Shown piece after piece: positions 14,941-60,526 of a stretch of 64,000 nt of DNA (position 1 is its first letter; every line of letters begins with the position of its first letter). The notes beneath the pieces were generated by a model that did no database searches, was not told the origin of the DNA, and was given only the letters and a program-made list of their open reading frames with translations. The stretch lies in the NCBI RefSeq assembly GCF_003344965.1, contig NZ_CP031194.1, positions 6,076,001-6,140,000 of the forward strand, written 5' to 3'. Both the position numbers and the translations under genes were made by a program. The DNA is from Streptomyces paludis. GTDB taxonomy: Bacteria; Actinomycetota; Actinomycetes; Streptomycetales; Streptomycetaceae.

Positions 14941-15591
14941 ATGCCAGAACTGGTGTTCTTCTCCGGAACCATGGACTGCGGAAAGAGCACCCTGGCGCTA
15001 CAGATCGGGCACAACCGGTCGGCACGGGGGCTCCAGGGAGTGATCTTCACCCGGGACGACCGGGCGGGCGAGGGCAAGCTCTCCTCCCGGCTGGGGCTGG
15101 TCACGAACGCGGTCGAGGCGCACGAGGGCATGGACGTCTACGCCCATCTCGTGGGCGTCCTCTCCGAGGGAGGCAGGGTGGACTACGTCATCGTGGACGA
15201 GGCGCAGTTCCTGTCGCCCGACCAGATCGACCAGCTCGCCCGGGTCGTCGACGACCTGAACCTGGACGTGTTCGCCTTCGGCATCACGACCGACTTCCGT
15301 ACGAAGCTGTTCCCCGGCTCCCAGCGGCTCATCGAACTGGCCGACCGGATAGAGACGCTCCAGGTCGAGGCGTTGTGCTGGTGCGGCGCGCGGGCCACGC
15401 ACAACGCCCGTACGGTGGACGGCGTCATGGTCGTGGAGGGCTCCCAGGTCGTGGTGGGGGATGTGAACCAGTCGTCGGCCGAGGTGGGGTACGAGGTGCT
15501 GTGCCGGCGCCATCACCGGCGCGAGATGACGGCCGCGGCGGCGCGCGCCGCGGCCCTCTCCCCGGACGTCCTCCCGGTCTCGGCCGGCTGA
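14941..15591 (+). CDS. tdk: Thymidine kinase
   Basis: A 216-aa type II thymidine kinase that phosphorylates thymidine in the salvage pathway. Visible are the P-loop SGTMDCGKST (residues 8-17), the DEAQF Walker B/lid segment, and the zinc site formed by CWCGARATHNAR and a C-terminal CRRHH. The length is typical. GAAAGG lies about 15 bases before the ATG. Confidence 0.93.
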   Translation: MPELVFFSGTMDCGKSTLALQIGHNRSARGLQGVIFTRDDRAGEGKLSSRLGLVTNAVEAHEGMDVYAHLVGVLSEGGRVDYVIVDEAQFLSPDQIDQLARVVDDLNLDVFAFGITTDFRTKLFPGSQRLIELADRIETLQVEALCWCGARATHNARTVDGVMVVEGSQVVVGDVNQSSAEVGYEVLCRRHHRREMTAAAARAAALSPDVLPVSAG

Positions 15592-15648
15592 CCTGACCGG
15601 GGAGCCGGCCCCGGGCGCCGGGTCCGGTTCGGACCACCCGATTCGGGC

Positions 15649-16428
15649 TCAGACCACCGGGTCCGACTGGACGATCGTGAAGACCGCGCCCTCCGGGTCA
15701 GCGACCGTCGCGAGCCGGCCCGTCGCGCCCTCGCGCGGCCGGCGGATCACCTGCCCGCCCAGCTCCGTCACCAGCCGCGCCGCCGCGTCCGCGTCCGCCA
15801 CCTCGAAGTGCGTCATCCAGTGCGCGCCGCGGTCCCGGTCGAGCGCCCGGCCCAGGCCGTGCAGCGAGGCGACGGGACGCCCCTCCAGCCGCAGCGTCAG
15901 AAAGTCGAAGTCGGCGGAGACCGTCGCCTCCACGTCGTAGCCGAAGAGCGCCTCGTAGAACTTGCCGACCGCGGAGGTCTCGCGGGTGATCAGCTCGTTC
16001 CAGACGGGTGTGCCGTGCGCGCCGGCCACCGCCGTCCCGGTGTGCGCGGCCGCCTGCCAGATCCCGAAGACCGCGCCCGCCGGGTCCGCGGCTATGGCCA
16101 TCCGGCCCGCCTCGGCCGCGTCCAGCGGGCCGACTCCGACCGTACCGCCGCAGCTTCGGATCGTCTCCGCCGTCTTGTCGGCGTCGTCCGTCGCCAGATA
16201 GGTCATCCAGGCGATCGGGAGATGACGGTCGGGCGGCAGCTGGCCGATCCCGGCGATCTCCCGGCCGTCGAGCAGCCCGCGGACATACGGTCCGAGCTGC
16301 TGCGGCCCGGGTGTGAACTCCCAGCCGAACAGCGCGTGGTAGAACTCCTCGGTCGCGGTGAGGCCGTGCACCATCAGACTCACCCAGCAGGGTGTGCCGG
16401 GCGTACGCCGGATCGCAGCCTCGGTCAT
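15649..16428 (-). CDS. VOC-family (glyoxalase/bleomycin-resistance-like) protein, two domains
   Basis: 259 aa made of two vicinal-oxygen-chelate modules. Residues about 1-125 read PCWVSLMVHGLTATEEFYHALFG in register, and about 135-255 read PVWNELITRETSAVGKFYEALFG, so it is an internal duplication. Metal-ligand positions are only partly preserved, so a binding or antibiotic-sequestering role is as likely as catalysis. I chose ATG 16428 over the upstream GTG 16434 because AGGAG is nine bases from the ATG but only three from the GTG. It is divergent from the sulfurtransferase gene. Confidence 0.8.
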   Translation of the reverse strand: MTEAAIRRTPGTPCWVSLMVHGLTATEEFYHALFGWEFTPGPQQLGPYVRGLLDGREIAGIGQLPPDRHLPIAWMTYLATDDADKTAETIRSCGGTVGVGPLDAAEAGRMAIAADPAGAVFGIWQAAAHTGTAVAGAHGTPVWNELITRETSAVGKFYEALFGYDVEATVSADFDFLTLRLEGRPVASLHGLGRALDRDRGAHWMTHFEVADADAAARLVTELGGQVIRRPREGATGRLATVADPEGAVFTIVQSDPVV

Positions 16429-52975: not shown

Positions 52976-53608
52976 TTGACGTTTAGGTCCGCCGTCGAAC
53001 GGGGCAGGATCTGGGCCGAGGACCCGAACACCGGAAAACGCCGCGATCTGGGACTCGAGGACGAGAGAGCCTTCTGGACCTGGGCCGTAGTCGAGGTCCT
53101 GCGGGCCACCGGCATCCGCATCGAGGAACTGCTGGAACTCAGCCACCACAGCCTGGTCTAATACCGGCTGCCCACCACCGGTGAACTTGTCCCCCTCCTT
53201 CAGATCGTCCCGTCCAAGACGGACACCGAGCGGCTGCTGCTGGTCAGCCCCGAGCTCGCCGACGTCCTCAGCGCGATCATCTGCCGAGCCCGGGAGGCCA
53301 CCGGCGCCGTTCCCCTGGTCCGCTCCTACGACCGCCGCGAACGCGCGTGGCAGGAGCCGGCCCCGCTGTTATTCCAACGACGCATCCGGGGTGAGGACGG
53401 CGCGTTCACTGATGAAACCGTTCGCACCATGCTCGACGAGGCCCTCACCGACACGGGCCTGACCGACGTCACCGAGGCCCCGCTTCGCTACACACCGCAC
53501 GACTTTCGCTGGCTGTTCATCACCGATGCGATCCTCAACGGGCTGCCGCCGCAGATTGCCCAGGTGATCGCTGGCCACCAGGACATCAACGTCACTCTCG
53601 GTTACAAA
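52976..53608 (+). pseudogene. Site-specific tyrosine recombinase, 5' part (nonsense mutation, interrupted)
   Basis: The N-terminal part is missing: homology begins near GRIWAEDPNTGKRRDL just after a junction at about 52984. The frame has an in-frame TAA at 53159-53161, between SHHSLV and YRLPTTGELVPL; the position is a Gln codon in related recombinases as I recall, so one C-to-T change would explain it. The catalytic Arg (ATGIRIEELLEL), HxxR (TPHDFRW) and His/Tyr (AGHQDINVTLGY) are otherwise in place. The frame breaks off after GYK at 53608 and resumes at 58356 (AVYPAETIEAHRAF), beyond an inserted element. Confidence 0.75.
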
Positions 53609-53727
53609 AACCCTCGGGAATTGCATCTGACGGGCGTGAAACCGCAGGTCGCGTGGTCACAGCGGGAAGCTGAAGGACTCCGGGGCCCCTACGAACTGGC
53701 GTCCTGAACAGGGGTGTTGCCGAGATG

Positions 53728-53764
53728 ATCCCTTCTGATGCATGATCTGCTCTCCAGAAGGGAT
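53728..53764. promoter_or_regulatory. Inverted repeat before the element's first gene
   Basis: ATCCCTTCT (53728-53736) and AGAAGGGAT (53756-53764) form a 9-bp dyad with a 19-base loop that covers the ribosome-binding area of the 367-aa recombinase. It may be a recombinase or HTH-protein binding site, or an RNA hairpin limiting expression. Confidence 0.45.
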
Positions 53765-53772
53765 GGCCGGGA

Positions 53773-54876
53773 GTGGTGCATCAGCAGAAGGCGGCCCTGG
53801 CCGGGTCCGCCCGTATGGAGGTCGTCTCCGGCGTGGCCCAACTGCGCCCTGAGGACGCGATGTTCGACGCGATGCTGCGGGGCTGGCGGGCTCAGCAGAA
53901 ATCGCGAGGGCTGAAGGACGAGACGATCGACCCGAGGGAACGGCTGATCCGCCGGTTCCTTGAGTTCGCGAACGAGTACCCGTGGCAGTGGACGCCGGCC
54001 CACCTGGACGAGTGGTCGGCAGCGCTGACGAGCGAGAAGCATCTGGCGCCGTCCACGATCCGCAGCTATCAGGGCACTGTCCGGCTGTTCACCGAGCTCC
54101 TCATCGACGCCCGGTACGGCTGGGCCCTGGCATGCGAAGAAGCCTTCGGCACCTATCCGGTGGCGATCTGTCACGAGTGGAATACCCTCCCTCACCTGCA
54201 GGATTACGAAGGCAACCCGGAGGCGAGGCCGTTCACCAGGGAAGAGCTGCAGCGTTTCCTCGACTATGCCGACGACCAGGTCGCACGCGCCGTGAAGTCG
54301 AAACGCAAGGGAGCCCTCGCCGCCTACCGGGACGCCACGCTGTTCAAGGTCATCTACGGGTGGGGGCTTCGGCGAACCGAGACGTCCAAGCTCGATGTGG
54401 TCGACTTCGGGCGGAACCCGCAGGCCCGGCAGTTCGGCCGGTACGGCACGCTCAACGTTCGTTACGGCAAGGCGAAGAAGGGCCAGCCGCCACGGCGCCG
54501 GAACGTGCTGTCGGTGATGGACTGGGCCGTCGAGGCGGTCGCCGACTACGTCGAGAATGTCCGCCCGCGCTTCGGGTTCCCCGATCAGCCTGCTCTGTGG
54601 ATCACCGAGCGCGGGGGCCGCCTGCAGCCCGGATCGATCAACGACCGCTTCGAGGCATATCGGGATGCCCTGGGGCTGCACAAAGAGTTGACCCCGCACG
54701 GACTTCGCCATTCGTACGTCACGCATCTGACCGAGGACGGGGTGGACCGGCGGTTCATCCAGCAGCAGGTCGGCCACGAGTGCGACAGCTCCCTGGCTAT
54801 CTACACGCACGTCAGCGACGACTTCATGAACACTGCCCTGAGCAAGGCCCTGGTCCCGGCGTTCGCCGGCGTCTGA
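53773..54876 (+). CDS. Tyrosine recombinase/integrase of the mobile unit
   Basis: 367 aa from GTG 53773. A SAM-like N-terminal core-binding domain (about 25-130) is followed by a catalytic domain with all expected residues: Arg200 in YGWGLRRTE, a Lys in RYGKAKKGQ, His309 and Arg312 in TPHGLRHSY, His335 in QVGHECDSS and Tyr344 in AIYTHVSDD. It should cut and rejoin DNA to move the element. It differs from the interrupted host recombinase. The size is close to Tn554 TnpA. The HTH gene follows after 14 bases. Confidence 0.88.
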   Translation: MVHQQKAALAGSARMEVVSGVAQLRPEDAMFDAMLRGWRAQQKSRGLKDETIDPRERLIRRFLEFANEYPWQWTPAHLDEWSAALTSEKHLAPSTIRSYQGTVRLFTELLIDARYGWALACEEAFGTYPVAICHEWNTLPHLQDYEGNPEARPFTREELQRFLDYADDQVARAVKSKRKGALAAYRDATLFKVIYGWGLRRTETSKLDVVDFGRNPQARQFGRYGTLNVRYGKAKKGQPPRRRNVLSVMDWAVEAVADYVENVRPRFGFPDQPALWITERGGRLQPGSINDRFEAYRDALGLHKELTPHGLRHSYVTHLTEDGVDRRFIQQQVGHECDSSLAIYTHVSDDFMNTALSKALVPAFAGV

Positions 54877-54890
54877 CGAGGAAGGACCCG

Positions 54891-55238
54891 ATGATGGCCG
54901 CCAAGCTCGACTACCACTGGCACCTACGCAAGGTCATGGCGGACCGCGGGATGTTCTCCACCACCGACCTCCTACCGCCGCTGAAGGAACGCGGCATCAC
55001 GCTGTCCACGAGCCAGGTCTACCGGCTCGTCGTCGAGCGACCGGAGCGACTCAGCCTGAAGATCCTCATGGCCCTGCTGGACATCCTGGACTGCACGATG
55101 GACGACCTCATCGAGCCGATCGCCACGGCCGGGGCGGCGAAGAAGCCCAAGAAGGCCGCCACGGGCGGGACCTCCGTCTCCGAAGGCGTCGGGGAACTAC
55201 GGCCAAGGCGAGCCCGGATCAACGGAGTTGACCGATGA
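54891..55238 (+). CDS. Small helix-turn-helix (Cro/CI-like) protein of the mobile unit
   Basis: 115 aa beginning MMAAKLDYHWHLRKVMADRG (two adjacent ATGs; AGGAAGGA upstream). The core STTDLLPPLKERGITLSTSQ followed by VYRLVVERPERL has the spacing of an XRE-type HTH; then comes ILDCTMDDLIEPI. The C-terminal 35 residues are Lys/Ala-rich and flexible. In place and size it could serve as the accessory TnpC-like factor or as a repressor. The stop overlaps the next start (ATGA), so it is co-translated with the 804-aa protein. Confidence 0.75.
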   Translation: MMAAKLDYHWHLRKVMADRGMFSTTDLLPPLKERGITLSTSQVYRLVVERPERLSLKILMALLDILDCTMDDLIEPIATAGAAKKPKKAATGGTSVSEGVGELRPRRARINGVDR

Positions 55239-57649
55239 CAGCGATCGCCGAGGAGGTCCTCGCCGATCCGGTCGGCCTGATCGTGCGCCTGGTCGGAAAG
55301 GTCGAGAAACACCTGGACGCCGACCGCATCCGCGGCATCGTCTGCACGCTCGTACGCACCCGAGCCGGCCGCCGCAACCTCGCCCAGGCCCTGCACGACA
55401 ACCCCTCGCTGCTGCGGACCGGCAAGCCGCCCGCTCCGTTCCGCGTCGCCAGGCTGCTGATGGCCCTGCACGAAGCGGGCGCCCAGAACACTGCCCTGCC
55501 CCACTGCGGCGAGTGCGGACGCCCCCGCCCCTACGTCGGCAGCCGCTCGGGCGGACGATGGGGATGCTCACCCTGCTTCGACACACCCGCCGTCTGCGCG
55601 GGCTGCCACCAGCAGCGGCGAGTCGTCAGCCGCGACCGCCACGGTCAGCCCCGATGCGCCAAGTGCCCCGACACCGACGGTGATCCACTCAAGGAACTCA
55701 CCCAGCTGATCACCGACCTCGACTCCGCACTCGACGCGGACACCATCCGGACCGCTCTCGAGCGGGCCACGAAGCGGCCCGCCGGGCAGCGACGACTGGC
55801 CTGGGCCGTGATCGAACGTCCAGAGCTGCTGACCAGCGCCGGGCACGAGGCCCCCACTCCGGCGGTGCTGCGGTTCATCGGCGAACTCGCCGTCGGCGGC
55901 GCCACGAAGGTCCTCAAACCCGCGTGTCCGCGCTGCCACGGAGTGAAGGCTCTGTCGAAACTCCTGGACGACCAGCGGATCTGCCGGGCCTGCTTCGCCA
56001 AGCACGCGGCCGTCCCCTGCGCACGCTGCGGCGCCGTCCGCGAACCCGCCACTCGCGATGCTGCCGGTCAGCCGCTGTGTCCCAACTGCCTGATCCGCGA
56101 CCCCATCAACTTGGAAGTCTGCGTCGGCTGCGGTCGTCGCCAGCCGGTCGCGGTCCGGCTCGCCGACGGCGTCCGCTGCCCCAGCTGCCGGCCGAAGGAG
56201 ATCAGGCAGTGCGGACACTGCGGCCGCACCGCCCCTTGCGAACTCTCCCGGGCCACCGGACAGCCCTGGTGCGACCGCTGCCAGCAGCGATGGGTGACCT
56301 GCAGCGGCTGTGGCACCGTCGCCCAGGCCCGCGGCGGCACCTGGGAAAAACCATCGTGCGCGCAGTGCACCAACCCCGACCCCGGCTTCTGGGGCCGCTG
56401 CCCCGTCTGCACCACCACCTGGCAGCTCAGCCCCCGTCCCTGCCAGCGATGCGCCCTCGACCGGAAGATCCGCGACCTCCTCGGCGACAGCACCGGGACC
56501 ATCGGGCCCGAACTCGCACCCTTCCATGCGGCATTGACGAGCGCCGAACGTCCTGACGTCGCCTGGGCCTGGATCTCCCGCGAGAAGGCCCGGGACCTGC
56601 TGGAACGCATAGGGCGCGACGAACGCCCCGTCACCCACGAGGTCCTCGACAAACTCCCCGCGGGCAAGGTGCTGGCCCACCTTCGCAGCGTCCTCGTCGC
56701 CACGGGCACCCTGCCACCGCGCGACGAACGGCTCGTCGCCCTGGATACATGGATCACCGAAACGGTCCATGCTCACACGGACCTGGCAAAACGCCGGATT
56801 CTGCACGGCTACGCGGTCTGGCACCACTTGCGCCGGCTCCGCCGCCGCATCGGCGACCAGCACACCACCCAGCTCCAGGACATGAACGTGCGCTGCCACG
56901 TCACCGCGGCCGACAACTTCCTCACCTGGCTCGCCACCGAAGGACTCACCCTGGGCACCTGCACACAGGCCGACCTCGAACGCTGGATGACGGACCCCGC
57001 CTTCACCTACCGCGACGAGACCGGCCACTTCGTCCGCTGGTCCGTACAGCACCGCCATGCTCACACCCTGACCTACGGCACCGTCCGCTGGATCGGCCCA
57101 CAGGGCACCATAGACAGCGAGACACGCTGGGCCGACGCACGCCGCCTCCTCAATGACGACACACTGCCCACCGCGGACCGCATCGCCGGACTACTACTGA
57201 TCCTCTACGCACAGAAGATCGCCACCATCAGCCAGCTCACCGTCGACGACGTCGACATCACCGGCGAGACCGTTGCGATCTCCTTCGGAACCTCGCCCGT
57301 CATCCTCCCAACGCCACTGGCCGCCCTGGTCCGCGAGCTCGTCGCGACCCGACGCGGCAAGGCCAAGATCGGCAGCCCGGACAACGTCCCCTGGCTCTTC
57401 CCCGGCGGACAGCCCGGCCGTCCCCTCAGCGACAGCCAGATCGGCCTGCGACTACACAAGATCGGCATTCGGCCCCAACGGGACCGATCCACCGCCCTGT
57501 TCACCCTCGCCGCCGAACTCCCCGCCGCGATCCTCGCCCGGATGCTCGGCATCCACATCCAAGTCGCCGTCCAGTGGCAGAAGGCATCAGCCGGGGACTG
57601 GGCCGGATACGCCGCAGATGTCAGCCAACGTGTCTCGGAGAACCAATGA
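55235..57649 (+). CDS. Zinc-ribbon-rich protein with degenerate tyrosine-recombinase-like C-terminus
   Basis: 804 aa. An alpha-helical plus zinc-ribbon module is duplicated: residues about 22-100 (VEKHLDADRIRGIV ... PHCGECGRP) align with about 158-240 (LDSALDADTIRTAL ... PACPRCHGV). In all, 16 CxxC pairs lie between 91 and 406, enough for about eight zinc ribbons. Residues about 500-790 resemble a phage-integrase fold (DNFLTWLATEGLTLG, ISQLTVDDVDITGE), but the catalytic Arg is Lys in YAQKIATIS and no HxxR is present. It probably binds DNA and assists the 367-aa recombinase instead of cutting itself. Confidence 0.7.
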   Translation: MTAIAEEVLADPVGLIVRLVGKVEKHLDADRIRGIVCTLVRTRAGRRNLAQALHDNPSLLRTGKPPAPFRVARLLMALHEAGAQNTALPHCGECGRPRPYVGSRSGGRWGCSPCFDTPAVCAGCHQQRRVVSRDRHGQPRCAKCPDTDGDPLKELTQLITDLDSALDADTIRTALERATKRPAGQRRLAWAVIERPELLTSAGHEAPTPAVLRFIGELAVGGATKVLKPACPRCHGVKALSKLLDDQRICRACFAKHAAVPCARCGAVREPATRDAAGQPLCPNCLIRDPINLEVCVGCGRRQPVAVRLADGVRCPSCRPKEIRQCGHCGRTAPCELSRATGQPWCDRCQQRWVTCSGCGTVAQARGGTWEKPSCAQCTNPDPGFWGRCPVCTTTWQLSPRPCQRCALDRKIRDLLGDSTGTIGPELAPFHAALTSAERPDVAWAWISREKARDLLERIGRDERPVTHEVLDKLPAGKVLAHLRSVLVATGTLPPRDERLVALDTWITETVHAHTDLAKRRILHGYAVWHHLRRLRRRIGDQHTTQLQDMNVRCHVTAADNFLTWLATEGLTLGTCTQADLERWMTDPAFTYRDETGHFVRWSVQHRHAHTLTYGTVRWIGPQGTIDSETRWADARRLLNDDTLPTADRIAGLLLILYAQKIATISQLTVDDVDITGETVAISFGTSPVILPTPLAALVRELVATRRGKAKIGSPDNVPWLFPGGQPGRPLSDSQIGLRLHKIGIRPQRDRSTALFTLAAELPAAILARMLGIHIQVAVQWQKASAGDWAGYAADVSQRVSENQ

Positions 57650-58299
57650 GACTGCCCGTCATCATCCACCACGCACGCCTCGGGGCAACGGAGTTCAAGG
57701 TCATCCGCCCTGCCCAGCCACTGCCCCACGCAGTACTCATCGATCACGACCGGCACCTGGACGCCTACCTTGATCAGGACGCCGCACGCCGGATTGGCGG
57801 CCTATGGCGACTCTCCGCCACGTCACCACGCGCGCTGATCCACCTGCCGATGCGCGGCAACCAGCCCCCCTCCCGCGAACTGCCGGAGGACGCGACGCGC
57901 CAGCTCGATCTCGTGCTGCTACATCACTCGCTGCAGTTCGCGCCGGCACGCTGGAAAGAGATCCGCAGCCGCCTCGGCCCAGGCCGTCCTCGGACCGTGA
58001 CGCTGCCCGACTCAGGACTCGAAAGCGATGCCGTGGTCGACCACGAGGCACGGCACTACCAGGAGAACCGGGACCTGTTTCACCAGCACCTCCATGCCGA
58101 GACCCTGTTCATGACCGGCAGTGCCAAGGTGTTCAGGGAGACCGCCCGGCACTTCCTCGACGTCGCTCGCAACGGGCCCGGCTACGTCCCCATCCATCCG
58201 AACTACCCGTACTTCTGCACAGAGCTCCACTCCAACGACGGCATCCTCGGCGACGCGCGAGAGATCCACATCGAGTACTGCAACGAATGGACCTCATGA
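57646..58299 (+). CDS. Unknown 217-aa protein of the mobile unit
   Basis: Starts at ATG 57646 inside the stop of the 804-aa gene. A soluble protein rich in His, Arg and Asp, with ALIHLPMRGNQPPSRELPED, DHEARHYQENRDLFHQHLHA, PIHPNYPYFCTELHSND and a C-terminal HIEYCNEWTS. The clustered His residues could coordinate a metal, but I recognise no family. Tight coupling to the recombination genes argues for a role in transposition or its control and not for a cargo function. Its stop overlaps the next ORF. Confidence 0.6.
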   Translation: MRLPVIIHHARLGATEFKVIRPAQPLPHAVLIDHDRHLDAYLDQDAARRIGGLWRLSATSPRALIHLPMRGNQPPSRELPEDATRQLDLVLLHHSLQFAPARWKEIRSRLGPGRPRTVTLPDSGLESDAVVDHEARHYQENRDLFHQHLHAETLFMTGSAKVFRETARHFLDVARNGPGYVPIHPNYPYFCTELHSNDGILGDAREIHIEYCNEWTS

Positions 58300-58820
58300 T
58301 CCAACAGGCACAGGGGGAGGCATTCAGGCAGTTCCAATACCCGACTCCACCATTAGCGGTCTACCCTGCCGAGACGATCGAGGCCCACCGGGCGTTCATC
58401 GCCCGTCGGCGGGCCTCCCGTCCCGGCGAGGAGTACCGGATCCCGACAGAGGAGGAGTGGGACGCCTTCCTCGCCCACTTCGAGAAGCGGAAGGTGTCCA
58501 TCGGCACCTGTGCACGCGCCTTCGGATCCCCCTGCATCCATGAGCACGCTTGTGTCAGATGCTCACTCCTCCGGCCGGATCCGGCCCAACAGGCACGGCT
58601 CGTCGACATCCGTGACAACCTGATCGCCCGCATCGCCGAGGCCGAACGCGAAGGCTGGCTCGGCGAGGTCGAGGGGCTCAAGGTCAGCCTCACCGGAGCT
58701 GAGGAGAAACTCGCCCAGCTTGACCGGCGCCCCTCCGGCCCCAGCGTCGTTGATCTTGGTCTTCCTGTGATCATCAACCCCAACTCCCCCCATCAGCCCT
58801 GTTCATCGGAAGCGGAATGA
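58296..58820 (+). pseudogene. Recombinase 3' part: tail of the interrupted gene, fused to element sequence
   Basis: A 174-codon frame. The first 20 codons (MIQQAQGEAFRQFQYPTPPL) come from the element end. From 58356 it is the tail of the host recombinase gene: AVYPAETIEAHRAFIARRRA, then RIPTEEEWDAFLAHFEKRKV, a Cys/His cluster (GTCARAFGSPCIHEHACVRC), and REGWLGEVEGLKVSL. This tail normally follows the catalytic Tyr region in a family of Streptomyces recombinases. It overlaps the preceding gene by four bases, so it may still be translated. Confidence 0.7.
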
Positions 58821-60083: not shown

Positions 60084-60211
60084 CGAGGCGACCGGTGGTC
60101 CTGCGCTGCAAAAGGATCAGACTTCACGGACCGCGGCTTGCGGTTGCTCCCGCGAGTGCGATCGCTGAACAGGCCGAGCTGGATCCGCAATCTCAGACTG
60201 ATTAGTTCAGA

Positions 60212-60454
60212 GAAGCCTGCGTCCGCTGCCCGATGCTCTGGCCTGACCCCGCCCAGCGTGACCGTCTCGTCGAGATCCGCGACAACCTCGTCGCCCGCAC
60301 CGCCGAGGTCGAACGCGAAGGGTGGCTTGGCGAGATGGAAGGGCTGCAAGTCAGCCTCGCCGGAGCGAAGGAGAAGCTCACCCAACTCGAACGGCGGCCA
60401 TCCCGCGTCGTCGTCGACCTCGGCATTCCCGTCAGCAGGACCCTATCCTCATGA
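60212..60454 (+). pseudogene. Tail fragment of a second tyrosine recombinase gene
   Basis: From 60212 the plus frame reads EACVRCPMLWPDPAQRDRLV, then ARTAEVEREGWLGEMEGLQV and KLTQLERRPSRVVVDLGIP. It is clearly homologous, but not identical, to the end of the tail at 58,550-58,780. Nothing upstream of ACVRC matches, so this is a fragment left by deletion or recombination, from a paralogous recombinase. Confidence 0.7.
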
Positions 60455-60526
60455 CGGCCGCCCGAGGCCCGCACACCTTGGTGCCGCCATGCGGCAAGAT
60501 ACGGCGAGGACATAGAGGGGGGTCTC

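Follow-up and report, generated by a model that had tools for sequence, protein, structure and literature searches.

Insertion of an actinobacterial tyrosine-recombinase element at the catalytic tyrosine codon of other recombinase genes, with a zinc-ribbon protein as its proposed target selector

A 64,000-nucleotide stretch of the Streptomyces paludis genome (contig NZ_CP031194.1, positions 6,076,001 to 6,140,000, forward strand; hereafter the window) carries an element of 4747 bp at 53609..58355, which interrupts a tyrosine-recombinase gene one codon past the codon of the catalytic tyrosine (Tyr). All window features given below lie on the + strand. Four open reading frames (ORFs) fill the element; they encode a tyrosine recombinase (P1), a small helix-turn-helix (HTH) protein (P2), a recombinase-like protein with zinc ribbons (P3) and a cargo protein (P4). 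Judged by its ends and genes, the insert is one member of an actinobacterial element family that is widespread and has conserved ends, and the targeting of recombinase genes is the common case there, not an accident of the window locus. The element is probably an autonomous tyrosine-recombinase transposon with three core genes and a cargo slot, in which P3 selects the target and P1 recombines.

Results

The interrupted host gene and its uninterrupted homologues

The host frame reads ...INVTLGYK up to position 53608 and resumes with AVYPAETIEAH at 58356, the element being placed directly after the host codons TAC and AAA. The upstream host fragment (53162..53608, from after an in-frame TAA to the codon after the Tyr) matched PF00589 up to profile position 165, and the C-terminal remainder of the recombinase (58356..58820) was defined by homologue alignments. 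A first-pass annotation had proposed the clean insertion of a mobile unit in a tyrosine-recombinase gene, with 53608 and 58356 adjoining as in related genes. This was right to the base: in four homologues uninterrupted at this point (loci L005, L006 and L007 and plasmid pBD2) the two positions adjoin in frame, and comparison with them revealed no target duplication at the window insertion. L005 ('MGYKAIYTTEAIEAH'), L006 ('MGYLAVYPREVVEAH') and L007 ('MGYAAIYPTDAIEAH'), all from other genomes, could be followed codon for codon across the junction point, with GY-x-A(V/I)Y unbroken. L005 aligned with the joined window flanks without a gap, and L006 and L007 with four gap positions each, all outside the junction codons. 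L006 is a fragment of 245 codons, yet uninterrupted at the insertion point. In pBD2, the two host halves matched L136:15083-15526 and 15527-15940, which abut with nothing between them. Neither of the outcomes named beforehand as speaking against an insertion, i.e. homologues lacking this join or a recombinase tail travelling with the inserted genes between unrelated flanks, was encountered; homologues join 53608 to 58356, and the P1-P3 genes recur in other loci with different flanks.

The window copy of the host gene contains an in-frame TAA (53159-53161) upstream of the insertion, indicating that the gene was broken before the insertion or has decayed since. A second, decayed C-terminal tail of a host-type recombinase was observed about 1.4 kb downstream (60209-60457; 67% identity, one stop). 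A remnant of a second element is also present in the same genome (L081, C1:3110000-3124000), with a P3 fragment that is 89-90% identical, a readable right end and a host-type recombinase tail about 2 kb beyond the remnant. The coupled start (ATGA) of the downstream host fragment in the window was rejected as a general feature, any in-frame start being found in only 22 of 35 right ends.

Element ends

The ends were fixed by three copies in genome G106 (99.98%, 99.90% and 99.74% identical), which lie in three recombinase genes at the Tyr codon and, being near-identical, are recent; the same ends were found again in other loci. Together with the empty sites, these copies indicate that the element is, as judged from sequence comparison, mobile. 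Junctions were sought with the left-arm motif, allowing up to 4 mismatches in 16, by a filter that did not demand a Tyr codon; for right ends the search motif ended in CCATTA, and up to 6 mismatches in 24 were tolerated. Of 49 left-motif matches, 45 were retained as junctions and four were dropped: L027 could not be read because of Ns, the motif at L080:9636 was false, and L113 and L114 duplicate L029 and L024. L109 was kept here and in the host analysis below despite its poor motif. The set thus comprises elements in fetched loci with a readable left motif, not all relatives; those without a readable left end, e.g. L032, L033, L038, L039, L095, L100 and L104, stand outside the count. The left end was readable in all 45 junctions, the window included, and the right end in 36 of them, a recurrence that places the window insert beyond chance.

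The actinobacterial family has the end pattern TACNNN/RACCCTCGGGAATTGCATC ... GTTCCAATACCCGACTCCACCATTA/ (slashes marking the element borders) or, in full, host TACNNN / RACCC-TCGGGAATTGCATC ... GTTCCAATACCCGA-CTCCA-CCATTA / host. The two 14-bp arms repeat each other imperfectly in inverted orientation, and 5 bp separate either arm from its 6-bp core. In the window, the left arm TCGGGAATTGCATC (53614..53627, 5 bp inside the end) is near-invariant among the 45 junctions, and the right arm GTTCCAATACCCGA (58331..58344) was recognised in the right-end alignment as its inverted relative. The left core, TACAAA (53603..53608), starts with the catalytic-Tyr codon. It is host DNA, because the left core differs among the three G106 copies and because uninterrupted relatives of the L079 target (L118, L119, L120 and L122) align with the joined L079 flanks without a gap at the junction; a matching TATGTC is present at the empty L079-type site, and L118 differs within the core itself. 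The right core, CCATTA (58350..58355), is borne by the element and was exact in 31 of the 36 right ends found with the CCATTA-ending motif.

Target genes

Upstream host fragments in the same frame were scanned for PF00589 in 44 cases, i.e. the 45 junctions minus L106, whose junction is offset by 4 nt. Tyrosine-recombinase genes, cut one codon past the catalytic Tyr, accounted for 36 of these 44 hosts, so that the insertion of a recombinase into a recombinase, which the first-pass annotation had called unusual, is the common case in this family. The target codon was TAC or TAT in 43/45 junctions, and the direction of insertion was that of every host gene identified. A PF00589 match at E<=0.001 was obtained for 27 of the 44 fragments. 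Weak matches were given by L026 (0.0028), L029 (0.0029), L078 (0.021) and L049 (0.078), and the upstream fragments of L103, L047, L082, L101 and L116 showed none. A profile of the 'EGY' hosts (L029, L030, L047, L049, L082, L101 and L116) matched that of 13 other recombinase hosts with an hhalign probability of 87.8 (E 3.3e-6), final Y aligned on final Y; L026, L078 and L103 were assigned mainly by a visible GH...T..Y motif. In all 24 individually viewed matches that reached the fragment end, the last residue fell on position 165 of the 172 in the PF00589 profile, which we take to be the catalytic tyrosine.

The host recombinases are very diverse (mean column identity 14%). Around the insertion site, 21 of 66 bases are common to the three G106 target genes; by blastp, one of their products did not match either of the others significantly. 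The gene interrupted in L085 and L086 encodes a cousin of P1 (49-51% identical) and has P2- and P3-like genes behind it; by this gene order, these two are cases of nesting in a related element. Four hosts are DDE transposases, three of the ISL3 type (L044, L045 and L117) and one of the rve type (L105), and two resemble 2H phosphoesterases (L091, E 2.5e-6; L083, E 0.0032). The three ISL3 transposase genes were entered at 'CRDRxxxY'. A single common DNA target motif was rejected, the pooled target matrix being too weak. Four far relatives (L144-L147), with P1 53-59% identical, all keep the W that replaces the nucleophilic Tyr in P3 (see below), and a left end is recognisable in L144-L146.

Core proteins and cargo

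P1 (53773..54876) matched PF00589 over residues 168-349 (E 5.3e-21) and is predicted to be catalytic, in line with the active-looking recombinase of the first-pass annotation. The small HTH protein noted there is P2 (54891..55238), of the Cro/C1 type (PF13443, E 1.7e-15). P3 (55235..57649) had been described as a dead-looking recombinase fold with zinc ribbons, a description that fits the alignment of 18 relatives: 31 cysteines are invariant and one more is present in at least 90%, making eight CxxC...CxxC ribbons (16 CxxC in the window), and W-Q stands at the place of the nucleophilic Tyr in 18/18. P3, recombinase-like at its C-terminus, gave a sub-threshold PF00589 match (E 0.012). Against profiles of solved structures, weak zinc-finger matches were obtained (best E 0.0087), among them a TniQ chain at E 0.11. 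The start codons of P2 and P4 were picked from the sequence.

Among 15 elements examined for CxxC motifs in P3, 11 had 16, L094 had 15, and L045 and L117 had 12; no matching P3 ORF was found in L044. The P3 proteins of L045 and L117, with six ribbons, are aimed at ISL3 transposases, and all eight readable P3 proteins aimed at tyrosine recombinases have 16 CxxC. This difference suggests that the ribbon array may be the reading head of P3; a count of 16 is not peculiar to recombinase targets, being also found in L105, L083 and L091.

The first-pass annotation had taken the element for a four-gene unit. Its four ORFs are as described there, but by comparison of loci the core is three genes, P1, P2 and P3, and P4 (57646..58299) is cargo, found in five loci (the window, L028, L042, L050 and L102). 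P4 had no match in Pfam, NCBIfam or PHROGs (E<=0.1) or in PADLOC (E<=0.01). A defence function was rejected, none of P1-P4 matching PADLOC at E<=0.01. No cargo ORF of at least 90 codons was found in L044, L045, L105, L110 and L117, where both ends were read; L049 has the largest cargo slot, with about 3.6 kb separating P3 from the right end, and in L078 an extra ORF sits between P1 and P2 instead. Annotated cargo in plasmid records comprises a GNAT protein (L098), a HAD hydrolase (L103) and an MFS transporter with a MerR protein (L107 and L108). In the latter two loci the element is 6326 bp long and its core proteins have identical accessions; the loci lie on separate plasmids of a single Mycolicibacterium isolate, and a different recombinase gene is interrupted in each. 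In L102 the P4-like cargo is 80% identical to window 57646-58299, while P3 is only 46% identical; such cargo beside very different P3 proteins indicates that cargo moves between element classes.

Distribution of the family

By a pattern-based scan, P3 relatives were located in 34 loci of a species-genome collection. Among plasmid records, 257 had a match at E<=1e-5, which in 56 covered at least 80% of P3. Of 101 genomes from the window's genus, 49, counting that of the window itself, gave a match at E<=0.001, in many cases a partial or distant one. The closest named relatives are mostly from Streptomyces. The genome that holds the window is a single contig of 8.45 Mb. A phage origin was rejected; 120 phage records matched P1, all below 60% identity.

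Divergence of P3 with target class

Two classes were compared, drawn after P3 and the targets were known: class I comprises elements in xGY recombinases (15 used), and class II those in recombinases with a non-Gly residue and a nine-residue H-Y spacing (6 used). Per 80-residue stretch, P1 was 82-95% identical between the classes and 86-96% within them, whereas P3 was 41-67% identical between and 71-94% within; P1, P2 and the ends are conserved, and P3 diverges in step with the target class. Among 41 elements (L106, L109, L115 and L116 omitted), similarity of target-site DNA followed P3 given P1 with a partial Mantel r of 0.376 (0/2000 permutations) and P1 given P3 with r 0.198 (5/2000), significances that may be overstated, as the sequences are related. 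When 40 elements (L094 also omitted) were labelled by target only, the labels agreed in 136/157 pairs with P3 at least 65% identical and in 88/161 pairs with P1 at least 90% identical. The window and L098, which differ in target class, share 96% identity in P1 and 49% in P3. Compared in 150-nt blocks, their DNA is 87-100% identical between the left end and 55108; identity is 64% in the next block, which ends at 55258, and 48-69% in later P3 blocks, a drop near the P2/P3 border that is consistent with module exchange. The class identities, Mantel tests, label pairs and this drop all point to P3, and P3 as target selector is the best reading inferred from them.

Alternatively, P1 alone might read the DNA around the Tyr codon, with P3 as an architectural or regulatory accessory whose divergence follows lineage. 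The terminal arms and the TAY core common to the elements would agree with this, as would the correlation of P1 with the target that persists when P3 is accounted for. We nevertheless consider it unlikely, because P1 is about equally similar between and within classes I and II though their targets differ, because P3 separates the classes, and because the identity of the window and L098 falls away near the P2/P3 border.

The fused tail

At the left end of the window element, an in-frame tail of 32 residues, NPRELHLTGVKPQVAWSQREAEGLRGPYELAS, with its stop at 53705-53707, is fused to the truncated host recombinase (53609..53707). Of 40 unique tails, 33 have their stop at codon 33, and in 30 of the 36 recombinase hosts the frame leading to the Tyr stays open over 250 codons or more. 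Both observations would suit loose insertion at many TA-containing sites, with survival only of Tyr-codon insertions, the fused recombinase-tail protein or its transcription being needed. This explanation is improbable, more so than the preceding one: the three recent G106 copies all lie at Tyr codons, the host recombinases are very diverse, and the tail has a pN/pS of 0.82, with selection that was not significant in a 16-sequence subset.

Discussion

In the mechanism favoured here, with P3 as selector, P1 together with the HTH protein P2 would bind the inverted terminal arms and exchange strands across the 6-bp core. P3, having lost the catalytic Tyr and carrying eight zinc ribbons, would recognise the target and deliver P1 there, and a change of P3 would bring with it a change of target class. 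After insertion, the left core would be that of the target and the right core the element's own CCATTA; with the cores so arranged, excision could restore the host gene. Mobility genes may serve as targets because such a landing site is itself mobile, dispensable and common.

A wider reading, which we hold to be slightly better than an even chance, is that of an 'active-site homing' transposon family. The dead recombinase with its zinc-ribbon array would be a swappable selector. It would read the DNA of motifs conserved in mobility enzymes, be they subclasses of tyrosine recombinases or transposases of the ISL3 and rve types, and bring a conserved recombinase to that place. The element would then live as a hyperparasite on mobile elements, its own cousins included.

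Several observations weigh against the favoured mechanism. Eight of the 44 hosts were not recognised as tyrosine recombinases, two of them (L094 and L109) remaining without family assignment in the Pfam scan of 44, and for 9 of the 36 recombinase hosts, which fell short of E 0.001 in Pfam, the evidence is weaker. In L106 (5235-6380, a gene annotated as a site-specific integrase) the junction lies 4 nt beyond the rule, and the far relatives L144 and L145 hit other genes, at a mutually similar coding motif (TH...DR). The pooled target matrix is weak, with a median of 44 equal-or-better sites per Mb of strand against a background of fetched loci in which such genes are themselves abundant; the class I matrix is better (5.4) and that of class II poor (78). 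The right core was not CCATTA in 5/36 right ends (L045, L082, L099, L105 and L110), a looser search gave variant right cores in L106 and L111, and the constancy of CCATTA is partly built in because the search motif ends in it. For the fused tail, selection at the protein level did not reach significance in the 16-sequence subset, 40 of 200 column shuffles being as extreme. P1 also correlates with the target (r 0.50), and all 21 P3-similar pairs with unlike labels involve L082 or L105.

To locate their sites, tyrosine recombinases normally rely on DNA-binding domains of the enzyme itself. Steering by a separate, exchangeable selector would, if true, be new, and the exchanges found in nature offer tests of this idea. 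The family would also be a case of mobile elements that have specialised on catalytic codons in the enzymes of others, and many truncated recombinases in actinobacterial genomes and plasmids could be explained by such insertions. The exact ends can now be used for annotating the family. In open-access full-text literature, a search leaving subscription papers and preprints mostly outside, no account of this element or of a preference for the catalytic codon of recombinases was among the matches listed.

Comparison with known elements

The first-pass annotation had likened the element to Tn554, a likeness that holds for the plan. According to PMC3414803, Tn554 and actinobacterial Tn554-like elements likewise encode two recombinase-like proteins, one long and one short, and prefer certain sites. 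The long protein of those elements is described there as keeping a potential catalytic motif; P3 bears eight zinc ribbons and has a W at the position of the Tyr. Tn554 is also reported to insert without target duplication. By local tblastn at E<=1e-4, P3 had no match in the whole of pBD2 and FB24 plasmid 1, which carry such elements; P1 was only 26-27% identical to its pBD2 matches, and homology to Famint27/33/36/41 was not found. The window host recombinase does match in this plasmid set, so that the host, not the insert, resembles the Tn554-like class of 2012; membership was rejected for the insert and is likely for the host gene. Tn554 and the actinobacterial Tn554-like elements are marked by two recombinases with a catalytic motif, one of them long, and in P3 the Tyr is replaced by W in 18/18 relatives.

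Strand-biased circularizing integrative elements (SEs) are reported from Gammaproteobacteria, in the text available of PMC10214605, with two active recombinases, Tfp, which lacks the catalytic motif, and Srap; they copy 6 bp from the left flank of the donor to the new right flank, a donor-derived footprint also described for Tn554-related elements. The element shares with them a recombinase-fold protein without catalytic motif, imperfect terminal inverted repeats and a 6-bp core. Membership was rejected, there being one active recombinase and a right core that is CCATTA in most right ends, not a variable footprint. GInt elements (ginABCD), as far as the available text of PMC5385486 goes, have three putative integrases and a helix-loop-helix protein, with flanking imperfect direct repeats; several recombinase-like proteins, a small protein and a cargo region are common to both, and zinc ribbons, of which P3 has eight, are not mentioned in that text. 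The gene content of the element does not fit three integrases with GinD, nor the three adjacent tyrosine recombinases of RIT elements, P2 being an HTH protein and P3 dead. With its intact PF00589 domain, P1 does place the element among tyrosine-recombinase mobile elements in the broad sense. That an ordinary member of one of these classes (Tn554-like, SE, GInt or RIT) lies in a chance location is very improbable: the 6-bp core, inverted ends, small protein and dead recombinase-fold protein recall SEs and GInts in the available texts of PMC10214605 and PMC5385486, but there is one catalytic recombinase instead of two, zinc ribbons are present, the right core is mostly constant, P3 is unmatched in two whole plasmids of the Tn554-like class, and the recombinase location is the rule in the family.

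Outside the tyrosine-recombinase elements, P3 would be comparable to TnsD of Tn7 in logic, as a separate zinc-binding selector that reads the DNA of a conserved gene; the TniQ match of P3 was weak. In Tn7 the zinc-binding selector TnsD/TniQ stands apart from the catalytic enzyme, a DDE transposase, and insertion takes place downstream of glmS. The 'res-site hunters' Tn5053/Tn402 target the resolution sites of other elements. The element described here would resemble them in homing on the recombination systems of other elements, at catalytic codons in place of resolution sites and with different enzymes.

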